A stretch of DNA of 41,979 bases from Nitrospirota bacterium. GTDB lineage: Bacteria > Nitrospirota > Nitrospiria > Nitrospirales > Nitrospiraceae. How positions within the stretch are numbered: position 1 is the first letter of the stretch; every line of letters begins with the position of its first letter. The notes beneath the pieces are model-generated. The model was not told where the DNA came from and searched no databases. It saw nothing but the letters and a program-made list of their open reading frames with translations. Below are positions 3,133 to 41,979 of the stretch, piece by piece. The stretch is taken from NCBI GenBank assembly GCA_016207025.1, contig JACQQM010000147.1, positions 1 to 41,979 of the forward strand, written 5' to 3'. Position numbers and translations under genes: made by a program.

Positions 3133-3420
3133 ATGCCCAGATCGGTCAGCAAAGGGGCGTTTGTGGATGCTCACCTGCTCAAGAAAGTGGAGCAGATGAA
3201 CGAAGTCAGGGACCGGAAGATCATTAAGACATGGTCGCGCCGTTCCATGGTGGTCCCGGACATGATTGGGCACACGTTTGCGGTTCACAATGGGAAAAAG
3301 TTTATCCCGGTCTTTGTGACCGAAAACATGGTCGGCCACAAGCTGGGTGAGTTCGCCCCGACCCGATTCTTCAAGGGCCACGGCGCTGTGAAGACGGAGA
3401 AGGCGATTCCCCTCAAATAA
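3133..3420 (+). CDS. rpsS: 30S ribosomal protein S19
   Basis: [19 protein letters not shown]...[46 protein letters not shown]. Confidence 0.98.
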
Positions 3421-32781: not shown

Positions 32782-32866
32782 GCAGCGGGCGTTGGATGGA
32801 CGCACACAAGATGCCGGTGGCGAGTTTGCCGAAAGGGTTCATGACGGTCTTGACAAGGAGGCCACT

Positions 32867-34198
32867 GTGAGAATGGTGATGCGGTACGGGATCGGAATCA
32901 TCTCGGCCGTGTTCGGTGTCGCCGTGTGGGCAAGCGGAGCCTGGGCCCAAGAGGCATCGCAATTGCCTGCTGTGTCCAAGATCAATAGCGGGGACACGGC
33001 CTGGGTCCTGGCCGCCTCAGCGCTGGTGCTGGCCATGGTCTCCCCGGGCCTCGCCCTGTTTTACGGCGGGCTGGTCCGGAGCAAGAATGTGCTGGGCACG
33101 ATCATGCACAGCTTCATCATCCTCTGCCTGGTCAGCCTGATCTGGGTGCTGTGCGGGTACAGCCTGGCCTTCGGGCCGGATAAAGGCGGGGTGATCGGAG
33201 GTCTGGACTGGGCGGGGCTGAGCGGCGTCGGAGTGGACCCCCATCCGAGGTACGGTCCCACGATTCCTCATCAGGCCTTTATGGTGTTTCAGCTCATGTT
33301 TGCCGTGTTCACCCCGGCCCTCATCACCGGCGCCTTTGCCGAGCGCATGCGGTTCAGCGCGTTGCTGCTGTTCGCCGTCTTATGGTCGCTTCTGGTCTAT
33401 GCCCCGTTGGCGCATTGGGTCTGGGGCGGTGGCTGGCTGAAGAAGCTGGGAGCCTTGGATTTTGCCGGCGGCACGGTTGTGCATATCAGTGCGGGCGTCG
33501 GCGCGCTGGCCTGCGCCTTGGTGCTGGGCCAGCGCAGGGGGTACGGGACCGACTATATGGCGCCGCACAACCTGCCGTTCACCCTTCTGGGAACCGGGTT
33601 GCTGTGGTTTGGGTGGATCGGGTTCAATGGCGGGAGCGCGCTGGGGGCCAATGGCACCGCCGTCGGCGCCATTGTCGCGACCCAGACGGCCGCGGCCACT
33701 GCGGCGCTGACCTGGATGGTGGTGGAATGGCTCCATCGCGGCAAACCGACGGCACTGGGTGTGGCCAGCGGGGCGGTGGCCGGCATGGCCACCGTGACCC
33801 CTGGGGCCGGCTATGTCTCGCCCTTCTCGGCCATCCTGATCGGGCTCGCGGCCGGCACGTTCTGCTATTTCGCCATTGTCTGCAAGGGGAAACTTCGCTA
33901 TGATGATTCGCTTGATGTGGTCGGCATCCATGCGGTTGGTGGGATCACCGGGATTCTGGCCACGGGGCTCCTTGCCTCCAAGGCGATTAATCCTTCGGGG
34001 GCGGACGGACTCTTCTTTGGAAATCCCGCCCAGTTTGGCATTCAGGCGATGGCGGCATGCGCGGCGGTGCTCTTCTCCTTCATCGGCACGTACATGATCC
34101 TCAAGCTGGTCGACGGCCTGATGGGATTGAGGGTGTCTTCGGAAGAGGAAGCGATCGGCTTGGATCTCAGCCAACACAATGAGCGAGCCTATTCGTGA
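32867..34198 (+). CDS. amtB: Ammonium transporter (Amt family)
   Basis: SGDTAWVLAASALVLAMVSPGLALFYGGLVRSKNVL; DFAGGTVVHISAGVGALA; HAVGGITGILATG; GTG start after AAGGAGG. Confidence 0.95.
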   Translation: MRMVMRYGIGIISAVFGVAVWASGAWAQEASQLPAVSKINSGDTAWVLAASALVLAMVSPGLALFYGGLVRSKNVLGTIMHSFIILCLVSLIWVLCGYSLAFGPDKGGVIGGLDWAGLSGVGVDPHPRYGPTIPHQAFMVFQLMFAVFTPALITGAFAERMRFSALLLFAVLWSLLVYAPLAHWVWGGGWLKKLGALDFAGGTVVHISAGVGALACALVLGQRRGYGTDYMAPHNLPFTLLGTGLLWFGWIGFNGGSALGANGTAVGAIVATQTAAATAALTWMVVEWLHRGKPTALGVASGAVAGMATVTPGAGYVSPFSAILIGLAAGTFCYFAIVCKGKLRYDDSLDVVGIHAVGGITGILATGLLASKAINPSGADGLFFGNPAQFGIQAMAACAAVLFSFIGTYMILKLVDGLMGLRVSSEEEAIGLDLSQHNERAYS

Positions 34199-37370: not shown

Positions 37371-38780
37371 ATGAATTCCCGCGAAGTGTTGGAGTACGCA
37401 AAAAAGAACAAGGCGCAGGTTGTGGACCTCAAGTTCGTGGATCTGCTTGGAACCTGGCAGCATTTCTCGATCCCGATCGAGGAGTTGGGCGAGGATACGT
37501 TCAAGAACGGTTCCGGATTCGACGGATCATCCATCAGAGGATGGAAAGCCATCCAGTCCAGCGATATGCTCGTTGTCCCGGATCCGGCCACCGCCTGCAT
37601 GGATCCCTTTATGGCGGTGCCAACGCTGAGCCTGGTCTGCAACGTGGTGGATCCGATTACCCGGGAAGCCTACGACCGGGACCCGCGGAACATTGCGCAG
37701 AGAGCCGAAAAGTATCTCAAGGGCACAAAGATCGGCGACATCTCGTATTGGGGGCCGGAGGCTGAGTTCTTCATCTTTGACCAGGCCCGCTATGACCAGA
37801 ACAGCCACAGCGGCTATTACTTTATCGATTCCGAGGAGGGAATCTGGAACTCCGGCAAGGAAGGGGTGAACCTTGGTTCGAAGCCCCGGCACAAAGAAGG
37901 GTACTTTCCGGTGGCCCCGACCGACACTCAACAGGATATCCGGAGCGAGATGATCCTGGAAATGCAGAAGGTGGGGATGTCGGTCGAGAAGCAACACCAC
38001 GAGGTGGCGACGGCCGGCCAAGCCGAGATCGACCTGCGCTTCGACTCTCTGGTGAACATGGCCGACAAAATGATGATGTACAAGTACATCATCAAGAATG
38101 TAGCCCGCCGGCACCACAAGACCGTCACGTTCATGCCCAAGCCGCTCTTCGGCGACAACGGTTCCGGCATGCACACGCATCAGAGCATCTGGAAAGAAGG
38201 CAAACCGTTGTTTGCCGGCAAAGAGTATGCCGGGGTGTCCCAGCTCTGCTTGTACTATATCGGCGGCATCCTGAAGCACGCGACGGCCCTGGCGGCCTTT
38301 ACCAACCCGACCACCAATTCGTATAAGCGACTCACCCCTGGGTTCGAAGCGCCCGTCCTGCTGGCCTATTCCAGCCGCAACCGGTCCGCCGGCATCCGCA
38401 TCCCGATGTATTCGCCAAGCCCCAAGGCCAAGCGGATCGAAGTGCGGTTTCCCGACCCGGCCTGCAATCCGTATTTGGCCTTCTCCGCGATGCTCATGGC
38501 CGGCCTGGACGGCATTGAGAACAAGATCGATCCGGGCGAGCCGATGGACAAGGATCTCTACGACCTCGAGCCTCGGGAAGCGGCCAGGATCCCGACCATG
38601 CCGGGCAGTCTTGATGACGCCATCAGAAATCTTGAGAAGGACCATCAGTTCCTGCTCAAGGGCGGCGTGTTCAGCGAGGACTTGATCGAGACCTGGATTG
38701 CGTATAAGCGCGGTCGTGAAGTGGACCAGCTTCGGCTGCGCCCGCATCCCTACGAATTCTTTATGTACTACGACGTGTGA
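37371..38780 (+). CDS. glnA: Glutamine synthetase type I
   Basis: [55 protein letters not shown]. Confidence 0.98.
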
Positions 38781-39019: not shown

Positions 39020-39074
39020 TCAATCCGGGCGTCGGCTGTGATGGCACGTCCAGCCCGGTGGCAAAGGAATTGTG

Positions 39075-40334
39075 ATGAGTGTAGCTGAAGTCATGGCGGG
39101 ACAGCTCGAAGAATTCCTCACGGACGAGTGCGCCGCGCTTGAGACCATGGCCGTGGTGTTGGCCGGAGGAGGGTCCCCGCAACAGAGGGTTGACCACGCG
39201 CTGGAACTGCTCCAGCACCGCCTCCGCGTGCTGCGGGCCAGGCTCGTTTCAAGTGAGTCTGGGGCCGAGGTGTTCTCCAAGCCACCGAAGCGGCTAGGGG
39301 GGGCGGACCATTCACAAGCCAAAGAAGCGACAGCGGTGACGAGTCGCCACGCGGGTCTGGTCGGACACAGCGCCGCGGTGCAACAGGTCTATCAGGCGAT
39401 TGAGCGTGTCAGTCACAGCCAGGCAACGGTCCTGCTGCGGGGAGAAAGCGGGACGGGCAAGGAACTGGTCGCCAAGGCGATCCACCTGGAAGGGCCTCGG
39501 GCGGATGGCCCGTTTATTCGTCTGCACTGCGCGGCGGTGACCGAAACCCTGCTGGAGAGTGAGCTGTTCGGTCATGAGCGCGGCGCGTTCACCGGCGCAG
39601 TGGAAACGCGCAAGGGACGGTTCGAACTGGCTGATGGAGGCACGTTGTTCCTGGATGAAATCGGCGATGTGCCCCTGGCCATCCAGGTCAAACTGCTCCG
39701 CGTCCTGCAGGACAAATGTTTCGAGCGGGTAGGGGGAAGCCGGTTGGTGATGGTGGATGTGCGTGTGATTTCCGCCACCCACCGCGATCTGGAAGCGATG
39801 GTGCGGGCGGGGGAGTTCCGGGAAGATCTGTATTACCGCCTCAACGTCGTCCCCATCGCGTTGCCGCCGCTGCGAGAGCGCGAAGGGGACATTCCGCTCT
39901 TGATCGAGCATTTCCTGGCTCGCTTCAATCGGGAGAACCGCCGGCAGGTGCGTTTGGGCCATGATCTGCTGGCCCTCATGGGGCGGTACCATTGGCCAGG
40001 TAATGTGCGGGAACTTCAGAACTGTGTGGAGAGGCTGGTGGTCATGGCCGACTCCGATCACGATCTGGTGACGTTCGAGACCATTCCCCCGTCGCTGCGC
40101 GGCTATTTTGCGGACATGAGACAGGTTACAGGCGCGGATCAAGGTAAAGGCGGAAAAGAGCGGGCGGAAGGGCAGCCGCTTGGCGCAAGCCTGCAAGCCA
40201 TCGAACGACAGCGGCTGCTGGATGCGCTCGAGCGAGTCGGGTGGGTGCAGGCGAGGGCGGCTCGCGCCCTGGGGCTGACGCCCCGGCAGGTGGCGTACAA
40301 GATGCGGAAGTACGGGATCTGTGAGTTGAAATGA
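39075..40334 (+). CDS. Sigma-54-dependent transcriptional activator (AAA+ and Fis-type HTH, no receiver domain)
   Basis: [15 protein letters not shown] Walker [33 protein letters not shown]-term [25 protein letters not shown]-term ~85 aa unrecognised. Confidence 0.93.
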
Positions 40335-40566: not shown

Positions 40567-41007
40567 ATGGAAGAAAAGAAGGCGAGGGATATGATTAAGG
40601 CCAAGCGGCTGGAGAAAAAGGTAACGATTGCCCAACTGGCCAAGACGGTTGGGAAAAATTCGATGTTCGTGGCAGCGGCCCTGCAGGGTAACCACCGTCT
40701 GACCGAGGAGGAGGCCAAGAAGGTAGGACACGCGCTAGGGCTTGATAAGGAGACCACCGAGGCGCTCAGCAAGTTTCCAGTTCGAACCGATTTTCCGAAC
40801 GCCACCGACCCGTTCAAATACCGTCTCCTGGAAGTCATCGGAGTGTATGGAGATGCCCTGCGAGAAATGGCCAACGAGATGTTCGGCGACGGCATCATGA
40901 GCGCGATTGATTTTACGATCGACATGGAACGGGTGACCGGGAGCCAGGGTGAGGCCCGCTGCAAGATCACCTTGAATGGCAAGTGGCTGGAATACAAGAC
41001 ATTTTGA
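40567..41007 (+). CDS. cynS: Cyanate hydratase (cyanase), cytoplasmic
   Basis: HTH-like N-domain; DPFKYRLLEVIGVYGDALREMANEMFGDGIMSAIDFTIDMERV...ITLNGKWLEYKTF; catalytic R, E, S present. Confidence 0.96.
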   Translation: MEEKKARDMIKAKRLEKKVTIAQLAKTVGKNSMFVAAALQGNHRLTEEEAKKVGHALGLDKETTEALSKFPVRTDFPNATDPFKYRLLEVIGVYGDALREMANEMFGDGIMSAIDFTIDMERVTGSQGEARCKITLNGKWLEYKTF

Positions 41008-41142
41008 CAGAAGGGGGTGGTGTCACAGTTATGGCTATCTAAAGAAACCTTCAGGTGCGAGTCGTCATGGAGCTAGGCGGCGGCTCAGAGTGTCGCACAT
41101 CGCGTTCAACCATTTCATGTTCATGAACAGAGGAGGTCGGTC

Positions 41143-41703
41143 ATGAAATTCTTCACCTTGAGCGCCTTGGCTCTGCTGCTCCTAGGTTTTTGGCAGGGGG
41201 CGGCATGGGCAGAAATTGAGAGCGACGTGGTCGATATGATCGCCCAGGAGAGTCTCGATAAACGCAAGCCAACGTTGGCCGTCGCTAACAAAGCGGCCGT
41301 GGCGAAGAAACTGACACTCGAAGCGCTGGGGATGGCCTGCAAGTTGATGCCGATCCGGGTAGGTGCAGTGCTCACCGGACAGGCACCGATGGAGAAAAGG
41401 TCGCAGGAGTGTCTCGAGAAGCAGCTCGGCCTGAAGGCCGGCAGCCTCGCCCCGCTGCTAGAGCCCCCGGCCCGGTGGAATGTGGGGTCCATCTATCGGG
41501 TTCACGAGGCCATCGACGTCTACGCTCCAGCGATCCAGCGGTGGTTCAACGAACATTTTGGCGATTACATCATGTCGGCCATTGACTTTGTGGTGGAAGT
41601 GAAGGAGACCAAGGGCAGCCACGGTGACCGCCGCATCCAGATCATCTTCGATGGCAAGGCGTTACCATATTCCGATGACGAAGGCTGGGCAGCGACGCAG
41701 TAG
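41143..41703 (+). CDS. Cyanase-family protein with predicted Sec signal peptide
   Basis: MKFFTLSALALLLLGFWQGAAWA|EIES leader; C-domain SIYRVHEAIDVYAPAIQRWFNEHFGDYIMSAIDFVVEVKET...IIFDGKALPY aligns with CynS; R, E, S spacing retained. Confidence 0.85.
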   Translation: MKFFTLSALALLLLGFWQGAAWAEIESDVVDMIAQESLDKRKPTLAVANKAAVAKKLTLEALGMACKLMPIRVGAVLTGQAPMEKRSQECLEKQLGLKAGSLAPLLEPPARWNVGSIYRVHEAIDVYAPAIQRWFNEHFGDYIMSAIDFVVEVKETKGSHGDRRIQIIFDGKALPYSDDEGWAATQ

Positions 41704-41825: not shown

Positions 41826-41979
41826 ATGAGGGCTCTGACGCTCAGCACTTTGTGTCTACTGATTGGAGGGCTGTGGCTCTCTGCATTAGCACAGGCAGAA
41901 ATTGAAAGCAGTGTCGTAGACGGGATTGCGCACAGCAGTTTTCACAAGCGCAAGGCGACCTTAGAGAAGGCCAACGAAG
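41826..41979 (+). CDS. Second signal-peptide-bearing paralogue, N-terminal part only (runs off window)
   Basis: Hand translation MRALTLSTLCLLIGGLWLSALAQAEIESSVVDGIAHSSFHKRKATLEKANE; mature start matches AEIESDVVDMIAQESLDKRKPTLAVANK of the preceding gene. Confidence 0.75.
   Translation, partial: MRALTLSTLCLLIGGLWLSALAQAEIESSVVDGIAHSSFHKRKATLEKANE

Follow-up and report, generated by a model that had tools for sequence, protein, structure and literature searches.

The gene of a probably exported cyanase-like protein and its surroundings

The stretch of DNA analysed here (henceforth the window, 41,979 nucleotides) is an entire contig of the draft genome G000 (2.47 Mb, 85% complete), assigned to a bacterium of the family Nitrospiraceae. 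Its distal part contains a canonical cyanase gene, cynS, followed after a gap of 135 bases by a gene for a cyanase-like protein with a predicted signal peptide (exported protein 1) and then by the beginning of another gene of the same kind. The relevant features, all on the forward (+) strand, are as follows.

32792..34198, +: AmtB-type ammonium transporter, about 7 kb upstream, recognised by sequence
37371..38780, +: glutamine synthetase
39072..40334, +: sigma-54-dependent transcriptional activator
40567..41007, +: canonical cytosolic cyanase cynS, 146 aa, no leader
41077..41096, +: small hairpin GCGGCG-GCTCAGAG-TGTCGC, upstream of exported gene 1
41143..41703, +: exported cyanase-like protein 1, precursor of 186 aa, mature form of 163 aa
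41143..41211, +: Sec/SPase-I-type signal peptide MKFFTLSALALLLLGFWQGAAWA, cleavage predicted before Glu24 (rule-based)
41338..41340, +: codon of Cys66, present in 7/7 exported proteins and 0/53 canonical cyanases
41410..41412, +: codon of Cys90, present in 7/7 exported proteins and 0/53 canonical cyanases
41497..41499, +: codon of Arg119, Arg96 in the mature protein and in E. coli (by alignment)
41506..41508, +: codon of Glu122, Glu99 in the mature protein and in E. coli (by alignment)
41566..41568, +: codon of Tyr142, aligned with E. coli Gly119; the exported clade has Ala, Thr, Tyr or Met here, the other cyanases compared Gly
41575..41577, +: codon of Ser145, Ser122 in the mature protein and in E. 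coli, followed by Ala123 (by alignment)
41826..41979, +: third exported cyanase-like gene, leader MRALTLSTLCLLIGGLWLSALAQA followed by EIESS..., cut by the contig end

The start of exported gene 1 is preceded by a good ribosome-binding site (GAGGAGG), and removal of the 23-residue leader brings the numbering of its catalytic residues into register with that of the E. coli enzyme. The original prediction had described this ORF with the same coordinates and a Sec-type leader, as well as Arg–Glu (+3) and Glu–Ser (+23) spacings and two cysteines 24 residues apart. All of this holds: the spacings are exact (R119, E122 and S145 of the precursor) and the cysteines occupy precursor positions 66 and 90.

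The gene order in the window is amtB, glnB, glnD, glutamine synthetase, sigma-54 activator, cynS and two exported genes, with amtB, glnB and glnD named by sequence recognition. The connection with AmtB drawn by the original prediction is weak, cynS and the ABC transporter found in another genome, G015, being the stronger immediate context. There the genes of a nitrate-type ABC transporter (substrate-binding protein of Tat type, NtrB-like permease and NtrCD ATPase), cynS and the exported gene follow each other on one strand, and in G005 a C-terminal remnant of cynS lies directly upstream of an intact exported gene. The hairpin listed above likewise recurs upstream of exported genes in other genomes.

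L047 (G005:C146), about 3176-3307, minus strand: decayed cynS remnant, C-terminal part
L051:4326-4345, L052:4954-4973, L053:7901-7920: hairpin ahead of the exported cyanase genes in the other three genomes (G015, G005, G002)

The hairpin loop GCTC(T/A)GAG is kept in the four genomes and the changes in the stem preserve pairing; G000, G002 and G005 each have a single exact occurrence, and G015 has a version with two mismatches. A search of Rfam returned no known riboswitch or other RNA upstream of the exported genes, and a pattern search showed no -24/-12 sigma-54 promoter close to cynS or to any exported gene.

The original prediction had missed the third, truncated gene, the remainder of which was not found in the assembly, and a second full exported copy that G000 has on contig C79 (71% identity to protein 1). 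Two canonical cynS genes accompany the three exported copies in this genome. Upstream of the second exported copy there are MazF/PemK-type toxin and antitoxin-like genes (L043, G000:C79, 1527-2197, minus strand), recognised by eye and hinting at a possible mobile setting; a search for exported copies carried by viruses or plasmids found none. The second canonical cynS of G000 is located within an ABC transporter cluster (L044, G000:C169, 357-5819), which is followed by another amtB-like gene and by Rieske/cytochrome b genes.

Relationship to cyanases and the state of the active site

The C-terminal half of exported protein 1 corresponds to the Cyanate_lyase domain (PF02560) with an E-value of 4.2e-20 and 71.8 bits (gathering cut-off 25), six further full-length exported homologues likewise score above this cut-off, and a phmmer search against PDB matches exported protein 1 to solved cyanases at 3e-13. 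Judged by these comparisons, its likeness to cyanase is beyond chance. The protein nevertheless misses the NCBIfam cut-offs for cynS itself (60.5 against 113.3 bits for TIGR00673 and 78.2 against 150 bits for NF002773), as do three other exported homologues tested against the equivalog cut-off, which the canonical neighbour cynS passes. The N-terminal domain is far more diverged than the C-terminal half. The original prediction had aligned it with the HTH-like domain of cyanase, and it does align end to end with CYNS_N (PF21291) and is predicted to be helical; its score of 13.8 bits, however, lies below the cut-off of 27.1.

In E. coli, the cyanase active site needs four subunits and the enzyme is a decamer. 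A structure model of exported protein 1, built as a monomer from a shallow alignment (pLDDT 71.8), was compared with PDB by Foldseek; the best 18 matches are all cyanases, with a TM-score of about 0.4. The canonical neighbour CynS, modelled alike, gave the same pattern (pLDDT 73.3, TM about 0.47), and because this control behaves in the same way, the low TM-scores are best ascribed to modelling alone one chain of an intertwined dimer.

All seven full-length exported proteins retain Arg96, Glu99, Ser122 and Ala123 in the alignment. In a published cyanase structure (PMC7801690) an inhibitor is held by the equivalents of Ser122-Ala123 and Arg96, the equivalent of Arg96 pairs with that of Glu99, and mutants of these residues are less active. 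The near-invariant positions of the canonical C-terminal domain are retained to 90% in the exported set, compared with 16-29% for less conserved ones. Two invariants are lost, though, throughout the exported set. Asp91-Pro92, invariant in the 53 canonical sequences, falls within a deletion of 5-7 residues in 7/7 exported proteins, which the original prediction had not noticed, and at position 119 all seven have Ala, Thr, Tyr or Met instead of Gly. The canonical reference set (n=53) had been pre-selected with GDGI, which affects its Gly119 count; without this selection, Gly is found in 39/39 non-exported cores and a different residue only in the seven exported ones. The Gly-to-Tyr change pointed out originally is therefore real, yet it is not peculiar to protein 1, since the whole clade lacks both this Gly and Asp91-Pro92. 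With these positions lost, the pocket is kept but the loop leading to the Arg helix and the turn ahead of Ser122 are redesigned.

Evidence for export

Leaders were called by rules considering core hydropathy, charge and cleavage site. By these rules, 8/8 exported N-termini bear a leader with one or two basic residues and a core with a mean Kyte-Doolittle value of 2.4-3.4, ending in an A/V-x-A site at residue 22-26 that occupies the same place in the alignment; for protein 1 the core mean is 2.52, the net charge +1 and the site AWA followed by E. No such leader is present in any of the 53 canonical cyanases; in the single one above the core threshold, the hydrophobic residues lie within the HTH-like domain. 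Each of the seven full-length mature exported proteins has exactly two cysteines in fixed columns, whereas most canonical cyanases have one, located elsewhere. Joint acquisition of a cysteine pair and a leader is consistent with residence in an oxidising compartment, where the pair may form a disulfide. With a leader in every exported protein and a cysteine pair unique to the clade, export is well supported, and we consider it very probable that these proteins leave the cytoplasm. Of the extracytoplasmic cyanase originally proposed, the first half is thus well founded, while cyanase activity is plausible.

Distribution and evolutionary history

Among 175 genomes of the family, the exported form occurs in five (G000, G002, G005, G011 and G015), and no further carrier was found among 236 genomes of the order. 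Outside it, the exported form is present in G217, the only carrier among 14 genomes of a different class within the phylum; this isolated occurrence suggests horizontal transfer. G217 (97% complete) yielded no match to a canonical cyanase and has the exported form only. Exact motifs were also run against 85,462 named genomes, a scan that would miss diverged forms such as that of G217; its four matches were all to Nitrospirae/Nitrospiraceae MAGs, one of them labelled as coming from deep Lake Baikal. A protein from G281 with a match extending into the leader region was rejected as an exported form, as it has no leader and possesses Gly119.

A phylogeny places the seven exported proteins in one clade with support of 100/99. 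The stem of this clade is 2.33 substitutions per site long. Within the clade pN (0.12-0.26) is far below pS (0.6-0.8), and dN/dS, where measurable, mostly falls in the range 0.07-0.22, synonymous sites being nearly saturated. A value of 0.6, based on few changes, comes from G005/G002, the sole closely related pair. Together with the long stem, these values suggest a single burst of strong change, after which the proteins came under constraint.

Nitrifier traits were also surveyed. For comammox metabolism, a search for AmoA in eight genomes gave no match, with the control equally silent. For possible nitrite oxidation, NxrA of the Nitrospira type is complete in G002, as is an NxrA-like protein (42% identity) in G005; the one in G015 is partial, G011 yielded just a short fragment, and none was found in G000 (85% complete). 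In two of the genomes with an exported cyanase, the NxrA or NxrA-like protein bears a Tat-like leader (L037; L092, G002:C12; L093, G005:C145).

Possible function of the exported proteins

The explanation that we prefer, with some confidence, is that the exported proteins constitute a periplasmic clade of cyanase paralogues of Nitrospiraceae that degrade cyanate outside the inner membrane. Granted that they are exported, action on cyanate seems to us fairly probable. A working enzyme is supported by the retained catalytic residues, by the adjoining cynS and ABC transporter genes and by synonymous changes exceeding non-synonymous ones. Against the periplasmic cyanase stand the loss of Asp91-Pro92 and Gly119, the score below the cynS cut-off, the dN/dS of 0.6 in G005/G002 and the stem, which at 2.3 substitutions per site is longer than a mere change of location would appear to require.

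What chiefly competes with cyanate hydrolysis is a protein of cyanase fold, an enzyme or a binder, whose substrate has changed, its Arg/Glu/Ser pocket acting on, or only binding, some other small carboxylate- or carbamate-like compound of the periplasm. Altered assembly or specificity has to be taken as a real alternative because the whole clade has lost Gly119 and the Asp91-Pro92 loop; the variability of position 119, the long stem and the scores below the cynS equivalog cut-off point the same way. Every residue known to contact the substrate analogue is, however, retained, and three loci (the window, G015 and G005 with its cynS remnant) link the gene to cynS, so that we regard changed chemistry as possible but rather unlikely. 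The N-terminus might also be an uncleaved anchor, or the protein might be cytoplasmic, making it a membrane-bound or auxiliary cytosolic cyanase. The rule-based nature of the leader calls leaves some room for such an interpretation, which is nonetheless improbable given the cleavage site at the same place in all eight N-termini and the clade-specific cysteines.

Decay of functionless cynS duplicates could likewise account for the very long stem, for three copies in one genome and for the position of one copy at a contig edge. Seven open frames with pN far below pS speak against it, as do the retention of the exported form alone in a distant lineage and the fact that the broken gene in G005 is the canonical one; decay is thereby largely refuted and strikes us as very improbable.

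On the preferred reading, that of a periplasmic cyanase, we infer the following for where the protein resides, its disulfide, its assembly, the reaction and the benefit to the cell. The exported protein would cross the membrane unfolded via Sec and be cleaved after A-x-A, before Glu; a disulfide in the former HTH-like domain would stabilise it, and it may form a cyanase-type oligomer. In the periplasm, cyanate and bicarbonate would be converted to carbamate and CO2, and then to ammonia and CO2. Ammonium would enter through Amt or be shared with ammonia oxidisers, and CO2 would diffuse in. Such breakdown would spare the ATP of ABC uptake and keep carbamoylating cyanate out of the cytoplasm.

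Comparison with known systems and significance

The exported form shares with CynS (EC 4.2.1.104; PF02560, TIGR00673) the C-terminal catalytic domain with Arg96/Glu99/Ser122/Ala123, the two-domain layout and genomic proximity to cynS and ABC transporter genes. It differs in its signal peptide, a mature N-terminal extension of about 25 residues, the cysteine pair, the diverged N-terminal domain, the loss of Asp91-Pro92 and Gly119, and an identity of only about 33% to canonical cyanases. The CynS of Nitrospira is encoded with an ABC transporter (cynABD/nrtABC), and the exported gene of G015 comes after such a cluster; the Nitrospira enzyme, however, is leaderless and needs imported cyanate, whereas the exported form would need no import. 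Periplasmic metabolism of a small toxic pseudohalide also has a parallel in the thiocyanate dehydrogenase pathway (PMC6504805), although the enzyme there is an unrelated, Tat-exported copper protein that makes cyanate rather than consuming it.

We found no description of an exported, periplasmic, secreted or extracellular cyanase in the open-access literature. The published cyanases that we encountered are treated as intracellular, and in one paper the cyanase of Trichinella was checked for a signal peptide and none was found. Discussions of reciprocal feeding, in which nitrite oxidisers with a cyanase supply ammonia oxidisers, have involved the cytosolic enzyme. We lean slightly towards the view that the present proteins represent the first extracytoplasmic, disulfide-containing cyanase, which would have arisen by a one-time duplication of CynS, export and redesign, and with which relatives of nitrifiers would mineralise cyanate extracytoplasmically, feeding both their own Amt and neighbouring ammonia oxidisers.

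If true, this would be a rare instance in which a cytosolic oligomer whose active sites span subunits has moved to the periplasm. Environmental data can be searched for the form by its leader, its cysteine pair and the signature YAPAIQRWxNEHFGD[not G]IMSA. If the exported forms still work, they would turn cyanate into ammonia and CO2 without cyanate import, and an exported cyanase is thus a concrete, testable candidate enzyme for extracellular cyanate breakdown.
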